Source: Oscillatoriales cyanobacterium (GTDB taxonomy: Bacteria > Cyanobacteriota > Cyanobacteriia > Cyanobacteriales > Laspinemataceae). From it: DNA of 64,000 nucleotides. Within the stretch, counting starts at the first letter, position 1. Each line of letters opens with the position of its first letter. Of the stretch, positions 7,706 through 46,007 are shown piece after piece. Under the pieces are notes generated by a model. The model made no database searches. It saw only the letters and a list, made by a program, of their open reading frames with translations, and was not told where the DNA came from. Where the stretch lies: assembly GCA_011390955.1 (NCBI GenBank), contig JAABRM010000010.1, positions 1 to 64,000 on the forward strand. Direction: 5' to 3'. Both the position numbers and the translations under genes were made by a program.

Positions 7706-10700
7706 ATGCCAGCCAATTTAAAACCCCAACCACAAGACAAAGCCAATCCAGTGAACACTAATGACTCACATATTCCGGCAATTCAAGAGGAATTAAATCA
7801 GCAAAAAGCTTTAGCTAGGGCGATCGCCCGGATTCGTCAATCCCTGGATTTAGGCATCATTTTCACCACCACCGCCCAGGAAGTGCGGCAACTACTCAAG
7901 TGCGATCGCGTCGCGGTCTTTTGCTTAGATCCACAACGAAATTGGGAGGGAGAATTTGTCTCCGAAGATGTGGGGGAAAATTGGCCATCCGCTTTGGGGG
8001 CAAAAGTCTATGACCATTGTTTTGGGGAAAAATTTGCCATCCACTACCAACAGGGACAATTTCAAGTGGTCGCAGATATCTACGCTGCCGAACTCAGCAA
8101 ATGTCATGTCAAAATTCTCGAACAATTCCAGGTTCGCGCCAATTTAGTCGTGCCACTCCTCCAAGACGAAACCCTTTGGGGACTGCTTTGCATTCATCAA
8201 TGTAGTGGGCCTCGGTCTTGGCAACCAGACGAAATCGAATTTATCCAACAAATTGCCGACCATTTGGGAGTTGCCCTGCAACACGATCGATATTTACAGC
8301 AAATCAAAGCCCAAGCTGCCGAACTTGCCAGGGCAGCAGAACGAGAAAAACAGATTTATCGCCAGAAAATTGTTGCCCGAATTATCGATAAAATTCGGCA
8401 GATCCTAGATATCGAGACAATTTTCGCGATCGCCACCCAAGAAGTGCGGCAACTCCTCAACACCGACCGGGTGGCAATTTATCAATTTTTACCGGACTGG
8501 ACTGGCACCTTTGTCGCTGAATCAGTGGCAGAAGGCTGGACACCCTTAGTAGGAACATTGCCCATCATTGAAGATACCCACTTACAAGAAACCAAAGGGG
8601 GCCGATATGTCAACAATGAGAACTTTGCCGTTGATGACATTTACCAAGCTGGTCATGCGGACTGCCACATTCAACTCTTAGAACAATTTGAAGCCAAAGC
8701 TTATGTAATTGTCCCCTTATTTCAAGGAGAAAACCTCTGGGGACTGTTAGCCGCTTATCAAAACTCTGCCCCCCGACATTGGCAAGAAGATGAAATCGAT
8801 TTACTCTCTCAAATTGGCTCGCAATTGACCCTAGCCCTGCAACAATTAGATTACCTCAAACAAATGCAGGCTCAATCGGCACAACTCACCAAAGCCGCCG
8901 AACGGGAAAGAATGATCGAACGCCAGAAAATTTTAGCAGCGATCGTGGATAAAATTCGGCGTTCTTTGGACATTGAAACGATTTTTCGCACCACCACCGA
9001 AGAAGTGCAAAAATTGCTGCAAGCTGACCGAGTAATCATCTATCGGTTTAATCCCGATTGGAGTGGTGCTTGTGTTTCCGAGTCCGTCGCCCCAGAATGG
9101 ATTTCATTATTAGATCAACAAATCGAACCGCCCCGGTTAACGGAAAATATTACCGATAATCTTTCTAAGATTACCGATAATATTACCGATGATATTACCG
9201 ATAGGATTAGAAATGTGAGTGACTGCACCCTAAAATCTTTGGCGGAATTAGCATCGACGGATACTTATTTACAAACAACCCAAGGGGGATGTTTTGTCCA
9301 AGGACAATCATTCCGCACTTGTAATGATATCTATCAAGCGGGTTTTACTCCCTGCTATCTGCAAGTCCTCGAAAGCATACAGGCAAAAGCTTATGTAATT
9401 GTAGGCATTTACCAGGGAACAAAAGTCTGGGGATTATTAGCCGCTTATCAAAATTCTGCTGCCCGTGACTGGCAAGAGGAAGAGGTGGAAGTGCTGTCCC
9501 AAATTGCCAGTCAACTGGGGGTGGCATTGCAGCAAGCAGACTATCTGAATCAAGTGCAGAATCAAGCAGCACAATTAGCGAAAGCGGCAGAACGGCAGCG
9601 ATCGCTTGCTACCACCATTGATAAAATTCGCCAATCTTTAGATATTGATACAATTTTCCAAATTACCACCCAAGAAGTCCGGCGATTATTAGAAGTAGAA
9701 CGAGTGGCGATCTATCGCTTTTATCCTGACTGGAGTGGGGAATTTGTTGCCGATTCTATTGTGGATGGTTCCACCCCACAGCCATTTCAAACATTGGCGA
9801 TCGAAGAAAACTGGGTGACAATTAATCAGTCAGGAAAATGTCAATATCCTAGAAATGAAACATTTGTCCCCATTTTACAAGGGGAAAAACTTTGGGGTTT
9901 ATTAGTGGCTTATCAAACCTCGCACCCGCGTTATTGGCAAGATGAAGAAATTAACTTATTAGCCCAAGTCGGGGTACAACTGGGAATTGCCATCCAACAA
10001 GCGGAATTGCTGGAAAAAACTCGTCGTCAAGCGGCGGAATTGTCCCAGACCCTGCAAAATTTACAAAAAACTCAAACCCAAATGATTCAAAGTGAAAAAA
10101 TGGCTTCTTTGGGGCAGTTGGTGGCTGGGGTTGCCCATGAAATTAATAACCCGATTAATTTTATTCATGGCAACCTCGGTTATATTGGCGATTATACGCA
10201 AGATTTACTAGAGTTGGTGCAACTGTATCAAGCCCATTATCCCGAACCAGCCGCCGAAATATTAGAAAAAGTAGAAGAGGTGGATCTGAATTTTATTAGT
10301 CACGATTTACCGGAAGCTTTAGCTTCTATGAAAATAGGGACGGAAAGAATTCGGCAAATTGTCTTGTCATTGCGAACCTTTGCTCGCCATGATGAAGCGG
10401 AAATGAAGGCGGTGGATATTCATCAAGGAATTGATAGCACTCTGTTAATTTTGCAACATCGCCTAAAGTCTGAGGAAGGGCGGGAAATTATGGTGGTGAA
10501 AAACTATGGCGATTTACCGAAGGTAGAATGTCATGGGGCGCAATTAAATCAGGTTTTTATGAATGTTATCAGTAATGCTATTGATGCTGTAGAAACTGTC
10601 GAAAATCCCACGATAAATATTAGCACAAATTTGATTAAAAGTCAAGCATTAATTCAAATTTCTGATAATGGTTATGGGATTCCTGAATCTGTTTTACCGC

Positions 10701-37461: not shown

Positions 37462-38171
37462 GACTTTATGACTATTTATAACTATTTATAACTATTTATA
37501 AATATTTTGGCTCTTTTCGCTGACCAGGAAGCTGAATCTACAATACACGATCCGCTGATTTTTCTTCCAAAGTAGTTTTATGACTCTCCAGATTAGATCG
37601 TCAGGTTGATGATATTTGCCGATCTTGGGTAGCTAGAGGCACCAATTTTTTATCGGCTTCTTTCGCTGACTTATTTCAATATGTAAAGTTTTTTAAACAA
37701 CTCCCACGATCCCAAAATAATCAGTTAAAATCGACCAGGCATATATGCGCCTGGGTCGAGCTAGGTTGCATTCAAAAAAATGCAAAATTTGTGCTTTTTT
37801 TGACATTAGGGATCCTTGTTACTAACGCAATTTAACCTAGTTCATTTTTTACTCCGGATCCGGTTATATTAATCAATATTAGTCGATCTATTCATGGGTG
37901 AAGATGGTGGATGATGAACCTGTATATTTAATAGATCAAATGGCCTAATCTAAAGCAAGGAGTTTTATGGTTCGATTTAACTAAATCAAATAAGCATAGA
38001 AATAGATTTGATGGTTCGGGAAATTTATCCGATCGAAAAGAGGCGATTTTCCCAGTCTAGTCATTGATTATTCGAGATAAATTGACTAGCATAATAATTT
38101 CTGTTGATCCACAAACACCTATTGGTCATATCGGCAAATTAAATTTCTTGAAATATGTCAGGATTCCTTAT
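37462..38171. other. Intergenic region upstream of the GT-C gene cluster
   Basis: About 700 bp between divergent genes. Three and a half copies of a 10-bp repeat AACTATTTAT lie at 37468-37502. At 37731-37760 a stem can form between GACCAGGC and GCCTGGGTC. No gene is seen; promoters for both neighbours should be here. Low-complexity AT sequence dominates 37780-38060. Confidence 0.4.
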
Positions 38172-39416
38172 ATGCTAAAAAATCCGCTAAAAAATCCCTA
38201 CCGAGGAATTATATTAATTGGATTGTTCCTGCGGTTATTATGGGCGATCGCAGTTCCCGTAGTCCCCGTATCCGATAGCAATGCTTACGATGTGTTTGCC
38301 CAAAACTTGGCCAAGGGCAACGGCTTTGGCTGGGGCGTCAACGAATTAACCGCATACTGGCCGCCGGGAACTTCATTTATCTATGCGATATTTTACAAAA
38401 TACTGGGTCATAGTTACTGGCCAATTATTCTTTTCAACCTCTTGGTAGCGGCTGGAACCATCTGGGTTACGATGTATTTAGCCGAAAAGTGGTTCGATCG
38501 CCGCATTGCTATTTTAACTGGTTTTATCCTAGCATTTTGGCCTGCCCAAATCCAGTTTACCACCGTCTTAGCCAGCGAATTAATCTTTACTATTTTACTT
38601 ATGGTAGGTTTGTGGCTATGGCTGGAAGAAAAATTTACTCTGCGATCGCGAGCCATTGGCGTAGGAGTGATTATGGCAGCAGCTTGCTATGTCAGACCCA
38701 CTGCCTTATTAATTCCTTTCCTGCTATTATTTTTTCGCGTCATCAAAACCAGAGAAATCTTTAAAACCGTTACAGCGACCCTGGTCATGTTTCTAATCAT
38801 GGCCATAATTATTGCCCCCTGGTCGTATCGCAATACCCAACTTTTCGGACAATTTACCTTGCTTTCAACTAATTCCGGTGCCGTATTATGGATGGGCAAC
38901 AATCCCAATTCTACCGGCGGATATATGCAATTACCAGAAGAAGTAGAGGGAATGAATCAAGCCCAAAAAAATCAATACTTAAAGTCTCTGGCTAGAGAGC
39001 ATATCAAAGAAAAACCCCTACTATTTATTCAACGTTGCATCATCAGGCTAATTGACACCCATAATCGGGAAAGTATTGGCGTGGCTTGGAATGAAAAAGG
39101 CTTAGTTTCTCGTTATGGTTCCGGCATTTTATTGCCCCTAAAGATTATTAACCAATTATATTGGCTGCCCGCTTTAGGTTTGGGATTAATCGGCATTGTC
39201 ATCTTAGGAAAACAATATGGATGGTTGACCATGCTGACTCATCCAACCGTGGTAATATGGGGCTACTTGGCTGGAGTTCATGCAGTAATTATTTCCCAAG
39301 ACCGTTATCATTTTCCCAGTGTCCCCATGATTGCCATATTAGCGGCATTAGCTCTAGCTTACGGGTTGGATCTAAAAGCAAAATTGCCGCAAGGGGAATC
39401 AGTGAATCAAGAATAA
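38172..39416 (+). CDS. GT-C fold glycosyltransferase (GT39/GT83, ArnT-like)
   Basis: 414 residues from the ATG at 38172 (MLKNPLKNPYRGII); a TTG at 38064 would add 36 residues of doubtful value. A PMT_2-type integral membrane enzyme: first helix GIILIGLFLRLLWAIAV, then the luminal acidic loop VSDSNAYDVFAQNLAKGNGFGW with the catalytic-type Asp, YWPPGTSFIYAIFY, and about ten further hydrophobic helices. It ends with a small periplasmic domain and a final helix (MIAILAALALAYG). Members transfer a sugar from a polyprenyl-phosphate donor on the periplasmic side. Four same-strand genes follow that could make and flip such a donor (see findings). Acceptor unknown. Confidence 0.8.
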   Translation: MLKNPLKNPYRGIILIGLFLRLLWAIAVPVVPVSDSNAYDVFAQNLAKGNGFGWGVNELTAYWPPGTSFIYAIFYKILGHSYWPIILFNLLVAAGTIWVTMYLAEKWFDRRIAILTGFILAFWPAQIQFTTVLASELIFTILLMVGLWLWLEEKFTLRSRAIGVGVIMAAACYVRPTALLIPFLLLFFRVIKTREIFKTVTATLVMFLIMAIIIAPWSYRNTQLFGQFTLLSTNSGAVLWMGNNPNSTGGYMQLPEEVEGMNQAQKNQYLKSLAREHIKEKPLLFIQRCIIRLIDTHNRESIGVAWNEKGLVSRYGSGILLPLKIINQLYWLPALGLGLIGIVILGKQYGWLTMLTHPTVVIWGYLAGVHAVIISQDRYHFPSVPMIAILAALALAYGLDLKAKLPQGESVNQE

Positions 39417-39527
39417 TTTTGCCAGAAAAATATTAATAGAAATGAATCATGGTTTGATTTATTTCTATTAATATAACTCTAGCGCTAATTTTTAACTAAT
39501 TAATGGTATATTTTAGGAGAAGCCAAA

Positions 39528-40163
39528 ATGAATCAACAACTAATCTCTATTATCAATAGCTACCCCCTAATCCTGCCTCGTTTGTACAATTACCTCAGAA
39601 TTCTGATCTTACCTTTAGAAGAAATTGCTAAATTTGTCCCAACATCGGGAAATATTGTGGATGTGGGATGCGGTTATGGTCTGTTGGATATGTACCTAGC
39701 CAAAATAGGCTCGAATCGAAATGTGATTGGTAGCGAATTAAATGGCAAAAGAGTGAGAATCGCTCAAACAATTTCCCAAAATATCCCCAATGTCAAATTT
39801 TTTGAGAAAAACTTACTCGCAGAAAGTGATGTGGCCAATGTCGATCAAATTGACTGTATAATTCTGATGGATTTACTGCATCATGTGACTTATGAACAAC
39901 AAGATGAGTTAATTAAAACCATCCATAATATTCTGCCCCAAGGCGGCAAACTGGTGATTAAAGATATGGACGATCGCCCCGCGTTTAAATATTACTGGAA
40001 CTTAGTTCACGATAAGTTAATGACCAAGTTTGATAAATTGCATTTTATTGGCGCCAATAATTTGACAAAAAAAATAGAGCAAATGGGCTTTGCCGTGCAA
40101 TTATCAACCAAGTTTAACCATCCCCTATACGCTCATTATTTGCTCGTATGCGAAAAAGAATAA
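39528..40163 (+). CDS. Class I SAM-dependent methyltransferase
   Basis: 211 residues; ATG at 39528 following AGGAGA. The Rossmann-like methyltransferase motif I is clear: NIVDVGCGYGLLDMYLA (about 42-58), then motif II/III GSELNGKRVRIAQ and the post-III strand IDCIILMDLLHHV. These are similar to small UbiE/Methyltransf_11-type enzymes. The substrate is not evident. Its position between the GT-C transferase and the UbiA-type prenyltransferase suggests modification of a sugar, lipid or nascent donor. No signal peptide, so cytosolic. Confidence 0.85.
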   Translation: MNQQLISIINSYPLILPRLYNYLRILILPLEEIAKFVPTSGNIVDVGCGYGLLDMYLAKIGSNRNVIGSELNGKRVRIAQTISQNIPNVKFFEKNLLAESDVANVDQIDCIILMDLLHHVTYEQQDELIKTIHNILPQGGKLVIKDMDDRPAFKYYWNLVHDKLMTKFDKLHFIGANNLTKKIEQMGFAVQLSTKFNHPLYAHYLLVCEKE

Positions 40164-40259
40164 AAAAAGCATAAAATAGGCAAATTTCCGGTAATGGTAA
40201 TAATTAGCCAAATCCCATTGAATCCATGAATACAATTGATGCTTTCAAGATGAATCAAG

Positions 40260-41186
40260 ATGAAAATTGCAGCATATTTAAAGGCGCTACGACCAAGACA
40301 ATGGACAAAAAATCTGATCGTTTTTGCTGCTCCACTGTTTGCGTTTAGTATTAATCAGCAATCCCTCCTGGGTAGCTTGCTGGCACTAGGGTTGTTTTGT
40401 GCCGCATCAAGTAGTTTCTATTTACTCAATGATATTGCCGATGTAGAAGCAGACCGACGCCATCCCGTAAAATGTAATCGACCTATTGCGGCTGGTTTAG
40501 TGAAGATTCCCGTAGCGATCGCTATGGCAGTAATTCTGTTAGGAGGTGCCTTAATCTTAGGCTGGTTGCGATCGCCTTTATTGGGCGCAACCATCTTATC
40601 CTACGCCATCCTGCAAATTGCTTACAACCTCAAGCTAAAACACACAGTAATTCTTGATGTCATGGCGATCGCTGCTGGGTTCGTCCTGCGTGCTTGTGCT
40701 GGGGCAGCAGCCACGGGAATTGTTTTATCTCCTTGGTTTATGTTATGTACCGCGATGCTGGCGTTATTTTTAGGCATAGAAAAGCGCAAAGCCGAACTAC
40801 GATTACTCAGAATTAAAGGCGGAAAAACCCGCGCCGTATTGCGACGTTATTCATTAAGTTTGTTGCTCCGCATGGAAAGTGTCGTCACCAACGGAGCGAT
40901 TATTACCTATGCGATTTGGAGCGCTGGCCCGATTGTCAAGGGAGCATCAACTCCTTGGATGATGTTAACATTACCCTTTGTGCTTTATGGAATGTTTCGT
41001 TATCAATTACTCAGTGACCCTAGAGAAATTTCTACTATCGACGAACATCAGGCGGAAACAGGTGGGGAAACCGAGCGCCCCGAAGAAGTCTTATTAAAAG
41101 ACTTCCCGATTAGATTAACGGTTTTAAGTTGGGTAATGACCACTTTTATCATTATGTATTTAAACCGCCAGGGAATCATTACATAA
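40260..41186 (+). CDS. UbiA-family decaprenyl-phosphate phosphoribosyltransferase (DPPR synthase)-like protein
   Basis: 308 residues from the ATG at 40260. It begins YLKALRPRQWTKNLIVFAAPLFA, as in mycobacterial Rv3806c (UbiA/DprE pathway), and contains the prenyl-phosphate/Mg site YLLNDIADVEADRRHPVKCNRPIAAG (split YLLNDIADVEADRRHP / VKCNRPIAAG), with NDxxDxxxD and the CRPIAAG-like stretch of this subgroup. A second acidic region is NLKLKHTVILDVMAIA. About eight membrane helices. DPPR synthase joins PRPP to a polyprenyl phosphate to give polyprenyl-phosphoryl-5-phosphoribose, the first step to lipid-linked arabinose or ribose. Next to it are a HAD phosphatase, an SMR-type protein and a GT-C transferase. 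Confidence 0.85.
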   Translation: MKIAAYLKALRPRQWTKNLIVFAAPLFAFSINQQSLLGSLLALGLFCAASSSFYLLNDIADVEADRRHPVKCNRPIAAGLVKIPVAIAMAVILLGGALILGWLRSPLLGATILSYAILQIAYNLKLKHTVILDVMAIAAGFVLRACAGAAATGIVLSPWFMLCTAMLALFLGIEKRKAELRLLRIKGGKTRAVLRRYSLSLLLRMESVVTNGAIITYAIWSAGPIVKGASTPWMMLTLPFVLYGMFRYQLLSDPREISTIDEHQAETGGETERPEEVLLKDFPIRLTVLSWVMTTFIIMYLNRQGIIT

Positions 41187-41230
41187 TTGTCGATTTCGAC
41201 CCATGAAAGCAAAAACCAATTAAATCAACC

Positions 41231-41767
41231 ATGAGGAAAAATCAGTTTCCCCGAAAATCATCTCCGATAGTGGCTGCCATTGAGCTTGATTTATTGATCG
41301 ATCGCGGCATCAAAGGGATTATCCTGGATTTAGATAATACCATCGTTTCCGAAGACGATCGCTATTTATCTCCCGAAGCAGAAGCATGGATTCAGAAAGC
41401 TAAATTACAAGGACTGAAGTTTTTTATCTTATCCAATGGTAAACGGCGTTATCGAGTCAAAACCTGGTCGGCAAGACTGGATATTCCGGCCATTAGTCCC
41501 GCGAAAAAGCCCTTTCCTTTTGCTTTTCTTAAAGCTTTCGCCCAAATGCAACTGAAAGCAAAGCAAGTTTTAGTCATCGGAGATAGTCTGCATACGGATA
41601 TAATCGGTGCATGGATCGTCGGTTGTCCGAGTATTCAAGTAGCCAGTTTGCCTCACCCTCCTCGCTGGTGGGAAAAATTAATCGGCAAATGGGTTCAAAA
41701 ACCATATCCATCAAACTATGAACTTTGGCAAATGGATCAAATCTATGAAAATATTGAGCATAATTAG
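41231..41767 (+). CDS. YqeG-family HAD-IIIA phosphatase
   Basis: 178 residues from the ATG at 41231. HAD motifs: GIILDLDNTIVSED (motif I, DxD), FILSNGKRR (motif II), the Lys in PAKKPFPFAF (motif III) and VIGDSLHTDIIGA (motif IV). The YqeG/GEP4 family includes phosphatidylglycerophosphate phosphatase, so this may be the lipid enzyme of the cell. Its position directly after the DPPR synthase-like gene also fits removal of the 5-phosphate from polyprenyl-phosphoryl-phosphoribose. The sequence does not decide between them. It ends 9 bp before the SMR gene, so both are probably co-transcribed. Confidence 0.85.
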   Translation: MRKNQFPRKSSPIVAAIELDLLIDRGIKGIILDLDNTIVSEDDRYLSPEAEAWIQKAKLQGLKFFILSNGKRRYRVKTWSARLDIPAISPAKKPFPFAFLKAFAQMQLKAKQVLVIGDSLHTDIIGAWIVGCPSIQVASLPHPPRWWEKLIGKWVQKPYPSNYELWQMDQIYENIEHN

Positions 41768-41776
41768 AGTTGTCTC

Positions 41777-42115
41777 ATGGTAAATAATTTAATTTTTAGC
41801 CTGTTTATCCTGCTGGCCGTTGGACTGAATACTGGCGGTCAAGTTCTCTTAAAAATGGGAACGGGTCAAAATCCCTTGAATCTTTACTTAATTGGTGGAT
41901 TGGGGCTGTATGCGATCGGTACAGTCTTTTATATTTTAGTTCTTGGTAAGTTTAATTTATCCGTCGCCTATCCCACGGTGATTGGATTAACTTTGATCGC
42001 GACAACTGTATCCGGTATGTTTTTTTTACAGGAGAAAGTTACTTTTATTCAATGGATGGGAATTGGTTTAACGATCGGGGGAATTTCCGCCATATCCTTG
42101 GGAAAAATTTTGTAA
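41777..42115 (+). CDS. SMR/EamA-type membrane protein resembling ArnE/ArnF flippase subunits
   Basis: 112 residues from the ATG at 41777, four transmembrane helices. The first helix reads LAVGLNTGGQVLLKMGTG. It has the GQxxLK pattern of ArnE/ArnF-like proteins and lacks the proton-coupling Glu of drug-exporting SMR pumps (Glu14 in EmrE). The third and fourth helices (YPTVIGLTLIATTVSGMFFL, WMGIGLTIGGISAISLG) are normal SMR. ArnE/ArnF move undecaprenyl-phosphate-aminoarabinose across the inner membrane. With the DPPR-like, HAD and GT-C genes on the same strand, flipping of a lipid-linked pentose is a reasonable inference. Last gene of the cluster; a hairpin follows at 42243. Confidence 0.75.
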   Translation: MVNNLIFSLFILLAVGLNTGGQVLLKMGTGQNPLNLYLIGGLGLYAIGTVFYILVLGKFNLSVAYPTVIGLTLIATTVSGMFFLQEKVTFIQWMGIGLTIGGISAISLGKIL

Positions 42116-43834: not shown

Positions 43835-45016
43835 ATGCCCTCAATTGCCCGCAAGAACCTATTTGAAGACCTGCCGCGTTTCCTCGTTGCTCAAGCGGGG
43901 ATCATGTTTGCGGTTAGCTTAATTACCATTCAAACCGGAATCTTGCAAGGAGTGATTCGCTCGATCGCCCTATTGATTGACTACTCAAAAGCCGATATCT
44001 GGGTCGGTTCCCAAAACACTGCTTCCTTAGAATTAACCTTGCAAATTCCATATGAGCGCTTTACCCAAGCCAAAGAAGTCGAAGGAGTAGAGTTAGCCGA
44101 ACCCGTGATTTTCAATGGGGGCAGTTGGCGATCTTTTTCCGGGCAAATCAATCATGTCCGAGTCATCGGATTCAATCCTGACAGCCAACTCTTTGTCCCT
44201 GGTGAGATTACCAAAGGAAATCTCAGTTCCCTTAAAGAACCGTACACCTTCTTTATCGATCGAAAAAACACTCGGTCTCTGAATGCGGAATGGATTGGCG
44301 ATCGGGTAGAAATGGGCATATTTCAAGCCAGACTGGTGGGGTTTACCCGAAATACCCAGTCAATCATATCCAGTCCTTTTGTTTTCACGTCTTTAGAAAA
44401 TGCCCATGCGATCGTCACCTCACCCATGACCGAAGAACCGTCTAAATTATTGGCACCGGATCCCGAACCCTTAGAATCTGACGATCTGATTACTTATGTC
44501 TTAATTCGGGCAAAACCCGGACAAGACCTAGAAGAACTCAAACAAAGACTGGAAAAAGCTTTACCATACAGTCGAGCATTTACCAAGGCCGAATTTGCCC
44601 AAATGACTCGCACCTACTGGCAAAAGCGCACTGGCATCGGCTTTGTCTTGGGACTGGGGGCAGTTGTTGGTGTCATCGTGGGCATCGTGGTAGTTGGTCA
44701 AATCCTTTATTCTTCTGTGGCTGACCACCTCAAAGAATTTGGAACTCTTAAAGCAATGGGTGCATCGAATTACATGATTTATAGTGTCATTATCGAACAA
44801 TCCCTCTGGATGGCGGTACTCGGTTATATTCCCGGTATGGCACTCTGTTTCGCGGTCAAAGCTTGGGCATTCGCGGCACAAGGACTGGTCATTTTAATTG
44901 TCCCGAGCACCGCTGCCGGTGTTTTTGGTATTACCGTGTTGATGTGTGTCGGTTCCGCCTTATTTGCTATTCAAAAAGTGAATCGCGTGGATCCAGCAAT
45001 TGTTTTTAAAGCTTAA
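43835..45016 (+). CDS. devC: DevC-type ABC exporter permease (MacB/FtsX fold)
   Basis: 393 residues from the ATG at 43835. The family start RKNLFEDLPRFLVAQAGIMFAVSLITIQTG (split RKNLFEDLPRFLVAQ / AGIMFAVSLITIQTG) carries the first membrane helix. A periplasmic domain of about 210 residues follows (YSKADIWVGSQNTASLEL, FTKAEFAQMTRTYWQKRTGIG) and then three C-terminal helices in the FtsX layout (FVLGLGAVVGVIVGIVVVGQIL, LKEFGTLKAMGAS between). DevBCA exporters move glycolipids or other envelope compounds through a TolC-type channel; in heterocyst formers they build the glycolipid layer. The ATPase gene follows. No devB membrane-fusion gene is adjacent. Confidence 0.85.
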   Translation: MPSIARKNLFEDLPRFLVAQAGIMFAVSLITIQTGILQGVIRSIALLIDYSKADIWVGSQNTASLELTLQIPYERFTQAKEVEGVELAEPVIFNGGSWRSFSGQINHVRVIGFNPDSQLFVPGEITKGNLSSLKEPYTFFIDRKNTRSLNAEWIGDRVEMGIFQARLVGFTRNTQSIISSPFVFTSLENAHAIVTSPMTEEPSKLLAPDPEPLESDDLITYVLIRAKPGQDLEELKQRLEKALPYSRAFTKAEFAQMTRTYWQKRTGIGFVLGLGAVVGVIVGIVVVGQILYSSVADHLKEFGTLKAMGASNYMIYSVIIEQSLWMAVLGYIPGMALCFAVKAWAFAAQGLVILIVPSTAAGVFGITVLMCVGSALFAIQKVNRVDPAIVFKA

Positions 45017-45233
45017 CTTGCAATAATTCTGGTGGCATATCTTACGGATCGAGTATTTTCTCTGGCGAAGAATGTTCATAACCATGAACCCGGTTCTCGA
45101 TCGACAGCCACACGAAGGCGAAAAACCGAGATTACCATATCGGTACTTGGCATTGGGACAACACGATCCGTTCACTTTGGTGCTTCCTCACACCACTGGC
45201 CGTATAACCCTTATCAATACAAATAAATTGGGA

Positions 45234-46007
45234 ATGATTGCTTCTTCTATTACCATCGATCAGTCTTATCGCAATATACTCATTCCAGTGGCTGAAGCTA
45301 CCCAGGAAATGGCAACTGCGAAAACCATTGCCTTGAAAGCCCGGGGTGTCAAAATGGTTTATCAATCCGGTTCGGGGTACTATGAAGCCCTCAAAGGAGT
45401 TGACCTGGATGTGCATCGCGGTGATATTGAACTGTTAATGGGTCCTTCTGGTTCAGGGAAAACCACCTTACTTTCAATTTTGGCAGGCTTGTTAACTCCT
45501 TCGGTGGGACAAGTCACTATCCTCGGACAAGACATTACCCGAATGTCTCGGTCTAAGCTTTCCAAGTTTCGTCGGGACAATATTGGTTTCATTTTTCAGG
45601 GGTTTAACTTATTTCCCGCCCTCACTGCGGCTGAGAATGTGGAAATGGCACTAAAAGTGAAAGGAATTGGCGGGCGCCAAGCCCGAACCCAGGCGGAAAA
45701 TTTACTCGAACAAGTCGGGTTAGCGGATAAAGCCAAACTCCGCCCTAGGGATCTTTCTGGAGGTCAAAAACAACGGGTGGCGATCGCGCGTGCTCTAGCT
45801 GGACATCCTCAGTTCATCATGGCTGATGAACCCACTGCTGCCCTCGACTCCCACAGCGGTCATGCCGTAATTGAACTGCTGCGTAAGCTTGCCAAAGAAG
45901 AGGGTTGCACTGTGCTGATGGTGACTCACGACCCTCGGATCCTGGATGTGGCCGATCGCATTCTTTATCTGGAAGATGGTATTTTAACCCCCCAAAGTCC
46001 TCGGTAA
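45234..46007 (+). CDS. devA: DevA-type ABC transporter ATP-binding protein
   Basis: 257 residues from the ATG at 45234 (MIASSITIDQS); the frame is open back to 45072, and a later ATG at 45309 is also possible, so the start is uncertain. Nucleotide-binding domain in the MacB/LolD group: KMVYQSGSGYYEALKGVDLDV, Walker A GPSGSGKTT, Q-loop GFIFQGFNLFPALT, signature LSGGQKQRVAIARALA, Walker B FIMADEPTAALDS, H-loop VMVTHDPR. It powers the DevC permease encoded upstream; the pair acts at the plasma membrane. Ends about 50 bp before a repeat cluster. Confidence 0.9.
   Translation: MIASSITIDQSYRNILIPVAEATQEMATAKTIALKARGVKMVYQSGSGYYEALKGVDLDVHRGDIELLMGPSGSGKTTLLSILAGLLTPSVGQVTILGQDITRMSRSKLSKFRRDNIGFIFQGFNLFPALTAAENVEMALKVKGIGGRQARTQAENLLEQVGLADKAKLRPRDLSGGQKQRVAIARALAGHPQFIMADEPTAALDSHSGHAVIELLRKLAKEEGCTVLMVTHDPRILDVADRILYLEDGILTPQSPR

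Follow-up and report, generated by a model that had tools for sequence, protein, structure and literature searches.

A probable lipid-linked ribofuranose cassette with an exchangeable GT-C-like gene in an Oscillatoriales cyanobacterium

The window analysed here is a stretch of 64,000 nucleotides at the start of contig JAABRM010000010.1 (positions 1 to 64,000, forward strand) from an Oscillatoriales cyanobacterium (assembly GCA_011390955.1; 7.12 Mb in 113 contigs, 95% complete). Its positions 38172-42115 are filled by five open reading frames (ORFs), all on the + strand and separated, in order, by gaps of 111, 96, 44, and 9 bp. They encode a GT-C-like polytopic glycosyltransferase (38172..39416; PMT_2 PF13231, 45.1 bits with a cut-off of 26.1), an S-adenosylmethionine (SAM)-dependent methyltransferase (39528..40163; PF13489, 51 bits, cut-off 27), a UbiA-superfamily protein resembling decaprenylphosphoryl-5-phosphoribose (DPPR) synthase (40260..41186; UbiA profile, 81.3 bits, cut-off 34.2), a YqeG-family HAD phosphatase of 178 amino acids (41231..41767), and a small membrane protein of the SMR type (41777..42115; PF00893, 23.9 bits, cut-off 23.7). 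The GT-C-like ORF starts with the ATG at 38172, with an alternative in-frame TTG at 38064. Farther downstream on the same strand (43835-46007) lies what we take from the sequence to be a DevC/DevA-like pair of ABC exporter permease and ATPase. A previous examination of the letters of this DNA, hereafter the sequence-only reading, had proposed five genes of these kinds at these positions, and both the ORF list and the family profile scores bear it out. We consider it likely that the locus is a lipid-linked ribofuranose cassette, made up of donor-making genes and an exchangeable GT-C gene.

Across cyanobacteria the conserved unit is UbiA-HAD-SMR, referred to here as the module. Two overlapping sets of loci were compared, a HAD gene being counted as adjacent when it follows UbiA on the same strand at a distance of no more than 900 bp, and DprE1 as present when it lies within 7 kb. 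The first set of 75 loci derives from 76 stretches hand-chosen among the matches, window included, and is not a random sample; one stretch lacking UbiA (L149) was dropped, and the stretch carrying a second YqeG (L058) is left out. HAD is adjacent in 39 of these loci (29 also with SMR), DprE1 is present in 15, and both occur in none. The second set consists of the 80 named loci listed of 212 matches: HAD is adjacent in 61 (49 with SMR), DprE1 is present in 4, and again no locus has both. Five of the 80 have SMR without a near HAD (in L186, HAD lies at 1.1 kb), and 10 have none of the three genes, five of these being near contig ends. In 54 of the 80, SMR and UbiA are no more than 2.5 kb apart, and in some loci a methyltransferase or other gene stands between UbiA and HAD. 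The sequence-only reading had named a non-conserved gene order as evidence against it; the core order is kept, whereas the full five-gene order is not. A conserved five-gene operon was rejected as a description of the locus: outside the window the exact order was seen in genome G375 alone, where the HAD gene may be broken, and it is altered even in congeners, G323 having an extra gene and Planktothricoides sp. SR001 a different upstream gene. Among the soluble genes flanking the module (76 of 103 genes scanned), group-1 and group-2 glycosyltransferases, methyltransferases, and sulfotransferases account for 3 to 6 of the 76 each. A scan of viral contigs yielded no relative, and plasmid records gave a single match at E<=1e-40, on a 1.2-Mb non-mobilizable plasmid of Kovacikia minuta.

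Judged by its sequence, the UbiA protein is most likely a polyprenyl-phosphate 5-phosphoribosyltransferase catalyzing the first committed step. It exceeds the curated cut-off of NF008978, decaprenyl-phosphate phosphoribosyltransferase (253.2 vs 207 bits), and falls under those of the sister models NF008977 (229.1 vs 234) and NF008976 (198.5 vs 474). Its best PDB match, and the sole strong relative of solved structure, is Rv3806c from Mycobacterium (8j8j/8j8k; E=1e-42 by sequence and 1e-58 by profile). The substrate-contact residues given for Rv3806c are R22, K28, Y70, N73, D77, K87, R90, Q135, Y138, K143, K191, Y157, and K208 (PMC10994848). In a pairwise alignment, 11 of these 13 contacts with phosphoribosyl pyrophosphate (PRPP)/Mg and lipid phosphate are identical in the window protein (R11, K17, Y54, N57, D61, K71, R74, Q119, Y122, K127, and K175), and they are invariant in all 35 module UbiAs aligned, out of 39 that are HAD-adjacent. 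The two that differ are Y157, replaced by Phe, as also in some mycobacteria (PMC10994848), and K208, replaced by Ala. Since the phosphoribose sites are not conserved across the UbiA superfamily according to the same paper, yet are invariant here, this conservation can be regarded as a specific sign of PRPP use, and its earlier description as DPPR synthase-like was well founded. The genome of the window holds seven UbiA-family genes, and no second protein in it matches the window UbiA at E<=0.001. Among the matches listed, the closest named relative comes from Planktothricoides sp. SR001, at 97% identity. The UbiA matches of G596 and G411 each carry one in-frame stop. More distant relatives were also encountered: 18 of 49 matching genomes of the phylum come from a single family with small genomes that lies outside the class (f31, 1.7-2.5 Mb) and whose DPPR-synthase-like proteins show 30-38% identity, with no module HAD or SMR beside UbiA in the short loci viewed and one 19-kb stretch (L060). 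A further arrangement is found at L054 and L055, where a UbiA of 33-34% identity lies beside a distant SMR, with neither HAD nor DprE1.

The HAD protein likewise belongs to the kind that had been proposed. It scores 170 bits against a TIGR01668 cut-off of 89, and the HAD catalytic residues D33, D35, T37, K93, D118, and D123 are intact and invariant in the aligned module HADs. Alignments covered 32 of 39 module HADs with one housekeeping copy and, separately, the window protein with 39 of the 60 HADs listed. The motifs SEDDRYLSP, SNGKRRYRV, and LPHPxRWWE are common to the module HADs and were not seen in the one housekeeping copy aligned, which is 28% identical. An AF2 model of the window protein (predicted local distance difference test, pLDDT, 87.9) has a secondary structure that, as we read it, leaves no room for an inserted cap domain, so that the enzyme is apparently capless; its best structural matches include the small HADs GmhB and YrbI as well as larger HADs, with TM-scores near 0.5. 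A second YqeG, 28% identical to the window HAD, is encoded on contig C5 of the same genome. The sequence-only reading had held that a HAD that was the sole phosphatidylglycerophosphate phosphatase would, together with a non-conserved gene order, refute its proposal; for the genome of the window the idea of a sole copy is rejected by the second one, and it may apply in one genus discussed below. In a search of 40 genomes, YqeG matches number two or more in 22 of 25 module genomes (taken from 39) and exactly one in all 15 genomes without the module; one module genome, G523, has three matches, of which two are overlapping fragments. No openly licensed paper was found that contains both YqeG and phosphatidylglycerophosphate phosphatase as terms.

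The SMR protein contains the GQxxLK helix as GGQVLLK, as the sequence-only reading had pointed out. Its residues N18, Q22, K26, Y65, and P66 are invariant in the 23 module SMRs aligned, of 32. A profile alignment with EmrE, though weak (E=0.086), sets Asn18 opposite EmrE Glu14, the proton/drug site of the pump, so the predicted lack of the drug-pump Glu also holds as far as this alignment goes. The protein remains far under the ArnE cut-off (31.4 vs 92 bits) and the ArnF cut-off (17.2 vs 99). From its family, its neighbourhood, and the loss of the pump Glu, we infer that it may serve as the flippase of polyprenyl-P-ribose.

The GT-C-like protein is the variable part of the locus. By sequence it has no convincing PDB relative and reaches only the general PMT_2 family; the GT-C kind proposed for it stands, and the label ArnT-like was too precise. 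After the first hydrophobic segment it carries D35xxxY39, with D35 and Y39 invariant in three homologues, a spacing suggestively, if weakly, parallel to D31/Y35 of Citrobacter ORF12 (PMC11127046). For its low-confidence fold model, the 20 best Foldseek matches consist mostly of oligosaccharyltransferase chains and also include the arabinosyltransferase AftA and PimE; none reaches E<=0.001, and the result lends a GT-C fold weak support. Among 84 module loci (77 with HAD, 6 with SMR only, and L097), 54 have a polytopic gene directly beside the module on the same strand. A long polytopic gene comes next downstream on the same strand in 42 of 63 cases and next upstream in 14 of 50, compared with 14 of 301 among genes farther away; polytopic calls are simple hydropathy-based transmembrane counts, and the Fisher values for this enrichment take related loci as independent. 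These neighbours form several families with no links between them at 60 bits, although distant kinship is possible; the largest of them is present at 29 of the 84 loci and the window's own (F4) at 5. Among 45 neighbours scanned (the window's and 44 of the 51 others listed), 12 match PMT_2, 4 GT87, 4 DUF6080, and 1 Glyco_transf_22; the others, apart from one apolipoprotein N-acyltransferase, match no family whose name denotes a glycosyltransferase.

The clearest sign that the GT-C gene is the exchanged part comes from three congeneric Planktothricoides-type strains (the window, G323, and SR001), since they differ just upstream of a shared methyltransferase-UbiA-HAD-SMR part: three different GT-C-like sets precede a near-identical methyltransferase-UbiA stretch. 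In the window, the F4 GT-C gene stands alone upstream of the methyltransferase gene, the point of difference lying at 39417-39527. Where the window has about 150 nt, G323 has about 1760 nt (L097), and its F4 GT-C is joined by a 391-aa GT-C-like protein (L097:5563-6738) with an N-terminal LDE motif, relatives of which adjoin modules in other genera and of which no copy exists anywhere in the genome of the window. SR001 carries another polytopic protein at this place (L152:327-1349), bearing a faint resemblance to L042's GT87 neighbour; the SR001 DNA matches that of G323 (99.8%) only from the methyltransferase gene on, and its contig begins just upstream of the polytopic protein. Close homologues of the methyltransferase were found only in the two congeners (94%) and in G375 (57%), and a methyltransferase-profile match lies within 7 kb of UbiA in 7 of the 75 and 8 of the 80 loci. 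Methylation of the product, which the sequence-only reading allowed for, is speculative; the enzyme may act on the sugar, the lipid, or the acceptor.

The pentose that is delivered was judged mainly by DprE1 and DprE2. A protein search of 57 UbiA-bearing genomes found DprE1 in 7. At E<=1e-20 it was found in none of 38 of the 39 module genomes, that of the window included and three of the 39 being only 61-77% complete; the sole module genome with DprE1 is G060, in which it adjoins a second, larger UbiA at another locus. The best match to the DprE1 model in the genome of the window reaches E=2e-12, versus at least 280 bits in 13 genomes with a real DprE1, and the best of its eight DprE2-model matches reaches 70.6 bits against a cut-off of 250. 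With no DprE1 turning up in 38 of the 39 module genomes, the sugar is likely to be ribose itself. The sequence-only reading had suggested that ribose may be used directly, having seen no DprE1/E2 in the window; the genome-wide searches strengthen this, and of the two sugars it named, ribose is favoured, an epimerase other than DprE1/E2 being the way by which arabinose could still arise. Within the same phylum, related UbiA genes are paired with DprE1/DprE2 instead of HAD, and such loci are expected to give arabinofuranose. In a quick tree of 118 UbiAs (near-duplicates removed), 10 DprE1-paired and 77 HAD-paired proteins fall into one clade of 109 rows (SH-aLRT 99). This tree requires a minimum of 7 switches from one partner to the other, a rough count because support is poor for nearly half of the inner branches and long branches meet. 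At L056 and L057, UbiA proteins of 468 and 507 aa lie near DprE1 and are, by their length, perhaps of a HAD-UbiA fusion type.

Together these genes outline a four-step pathway. UbiA would transfer phosphoribose from PRPP to polyprenyl-P, giving polyprenyl-P-ribose-5-P, as its active-site identity suggests. The YqeG-type HAD would remove the 5-phosphate to yield polyprenyl-P-ribofuranose, a step proposed from its neighbourhood, its catalytic residues, and a published analogue. The SMR protein, by its family, its neighbourhood, its lost pump Glu, and its Citrobacter analogue, would flip this lipid outward. Finally, by gene association and again by analogy with Citrobacter, the GT-C enzyme, represented in the window by the PMT_2 protein, would move ribofuranose to an extracytoplasmic glycan or protein; both sugar and acceptor are inferred. 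The donor-making genes would form the constant part, and the GT-C-like gene varies by locus. Because it differs from locus to locus, even among the three congeneric strains, the acceptors probably differ as well. Active-site conservation, UbiA-HAD-SMR linkage, the failure to find DprE1 in 38 of 39 module genomes, and the enrichment of polytopic GT-C-like genes support the core of the sequence-only reading, in which a DPPR synthase, a 5'-phosphatase, a flippase, and a GT-C enzyme decorate an envelope glycan with a lipid-linked pentose.

Two alternatives concern the chemistry itself. The same pathway could deliver an epimer of ribose, arabinofuranose or xylofuranose, through an epimerase encoded elsewhere, much as the O2 locus of Citrobacter includes the short-chain dehydrogenase/reductase (SDR) ORF13. 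The published system is indeed diversified by accessory epimerases (PMC11127046), and the eight sub-threshold DprE2-model matches could be read in this sense. Yet DprE1 was missing from the search results of nearly all module genomes, its best match in the genome of the window is feeble, and no SDR or epimerase is among the 25 commonest of the 112 Pfam families in the 76 flanking genes, so that this variant is unlikely. That UbiA is an ordinary prenyltransferase for a quinone, a pigment, or a similar product, misannotated as a DPPR synthase, has in its favour the breadth of the superfamily to which it belongs. Against this, the models for heme O, chlorophyll, quinone, and homogentisate enzymes all stay far under their cut-offs while NF008978 is exceeded, and the phosphoribose-site residues that the superfamily does not conserve (PMC10994848) are invariant here; of all the alternatives weighed, this one has the smallest chance of being right.

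Other observations tell against a ribofuranose cassette, and two further explanations draw on them. One is that the HAD is a second phosphatidylglycerophosphate phosphatase that lies beside UbiA by chance, the two acting in separate pathways. It does fall in the YqeG/phosphatidylglycerophosphate phosphatase family. In three species of one genus (G333, G307, and G358) the module HAD is the only YqeG, a state confirmed with the housekeeping protein as query, so that in that genus it may double as the housekeeping enzyme or have replaced it. Moreover, some UbiA genomes do without the module HAD: among 14 with a HAD-less UbiA locus (two pairs of which resemble one assembly twice), 12 yielded no YqeG match beyond a weak one that is presumably the housekeeping protein, one has none, and one has module HADs elsewhere. 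The enzyme is therefore not indispensable and can evidently be dispensed with or replaced. In G375, the HAD between UbiA and SMR matches in three reading frames (L144, about 9019-9418) and may be broken, as a pseudogene or through draft errors. Nevertheless, the UbiA-HAD neighbourhood is kept in 61 of the 80 named loci while the outer flanks change, the module HAD is an extra YqeG copy in most module genomes counted, and the motifs of the module HADs were not seen in the housekeeping copy aligned, which together make a chance neighbourhood improbable. The other explanation takes lipid-P-ribose as an end product, a lipid or a signal, and assigns the neighbouring GT-C genes to other pathways. 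It is consistent with the several GT-C-like families, unlinked at the threshold used, and with the 30 of 84 module loci in which no polytopic gene adjoins the module on the same strand. The strong positional enrichment of polytopic genes and the published Citrobacter analogue (PMC11127046) speak against it, and we regard it as very improbable. Also against the cassette, one polytopic neighbour is an apolipoprotein N-acyltransferase and no GT-C, and the model of the window GT-C is poor (pLDDT 52, from a 3-sequence alignment). Finally, the module is patchy, a close UbiA occurring in 58 of 388 genomes of the order (E<=1e-60) and in 14 of 53 genomes of one genus; housekeeping flanks (phosphoribosylglycinamide synthetase, ABC1 kinase, and protein kinase) are about as common as the glycan-related ones, at 3 or 4 of 76; and Nostoc commune, at which no search was aimed, does not appear in the 80 loci listed out of 212 matches.

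A ribofuranose cassette would provide a concrete gene set for the placement of ribose on cyanobacterial extracellular glycans, where this sugar is on record: ribose and arabinose occur in the exopolysaccharides of cyanobacteria, which can also carry methyl groups (PMC4390846), and D-ribofuranose pendants are described on Nostoc glycans in a passage that refers to earlier work (PMC5635763). It also suggests a new role for a YqeG HAD branch otherwise taken for phosphatidylglycerophosphate phosphatases. Since one synthase lineage is paired with either a phosphatase/flippase set or DprE1/E2, the pentose should be predictable from sequence. A wider proposal, to which we give somewhat less than an even chance, is that these loci represent a cyanobacterial branch of lipid-linked pentose chemistry: a patchy donor cassette of a PRPP-dependent UbiA, a recruited capless YqeG, and a Glu-less SMR, with UbiA paired with DprE1/E2 in some lineages, would feed at least half a dozen unlinked GT-C-like families, bring about strain-variable ribo- or arabinofuranosylation of sheath polysaccharides, pili, or S-layers, and be the source of the Nostoc D-ribofuranose pendants.

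Among known systems, the closest is the 'three-component' pentofuranose system published in 2024 for Citrobacter youngae O1/O2 (ORF12, a GT136 enzyme, with ORF14 and ORF15), of which, according to its main text, the synthase/phosphatase and the GT-C were assayed and the flippase was inferred (PMC11127046). Both it and the window have a UbiA-type polyprenyl phosphoribose synthase, a HAD phosphatase, a small EmrE/ArnE-like flippase candidate, and a GT-C, and neither the Citrobacter ribose branch, as described there, nor the window has DprE1/E2. A synthase, a small flippase, and a GT-C encoded together, the combination that defines a three-component system, are found in the window. Because the cassette would work like the Citrobacter system (PMC11127046), its concept is already known. 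The differences lie in the parts. The HAD domain of ORF15 is fused to UbiA and modelled with an alpha-helical cap (PMC11127046), whereas that of the window is a stand-alone YqeG-family protein in which no cap insertion is apparent from the model; the Citrobacter GT-C is classed as GT136 and that of the window matches PMT_2; and the window differs in phylum, in its methyltransferase, and in its predicted acceptor.

The mycobacterial decaprenylphosphoryl-arabinose (DPA) pathway resembles the window in its PRPP-dependent UbiA synthase, whose active-site residues are almost identical, and in its GT-C end users. It differs in using DprE1/E2 and a phosphatase, Rv3807c, unrelated to HAD phosphatases, and its Rv3789 has been termed an SMR-family exporter (PMC11127046). 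The DprE1/E2-type cyanobacterial loci have UbiA proteins up to 73% identical to that of the window and, in one case, a GT87 neighbour, but their YqeG HAD gives way to DprE1 and a DprE2-like SDR; one locus examined does encode a HAD, of a different type and joined to an LPG-synthase-like membrane domain in a fusion protein. The Arn pathway for 4-amino-4-deoxy-L-arabinose (L-Ara4N), with its ArnE/ArnF flippase and ArnT, draws its donor from a UDP-sugar. It shares with the window an SMR-type protein with the GQxxLK helix and a GT-C using a polyprenyl-P-pentose; by contrast, the window has one SMR gene, under both the ArnE and the ArnF cut-offs, rather than an E/F pair, and its donor is predicted to come from PRPP.

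No description of the cyanobacterial module was found in the openly licensed literature, and a word search for 'cyanobacter' in the main text of PMC11127046, whose supplement shows further candidate systems, returned nothing. The sequence-only reading, which knew of no description of such a pathway in cyanobacteria, agrees with this search result, and the type of pathway itself had been published for Citrobacter (PMC11127046). What is new in comparison with these systems is the stand-alone, apparently capless YqeG phosphatase, the use of the module across cyanobacteria, and the pairing of one kind of UbiA with either HAD or DprE1/E2.

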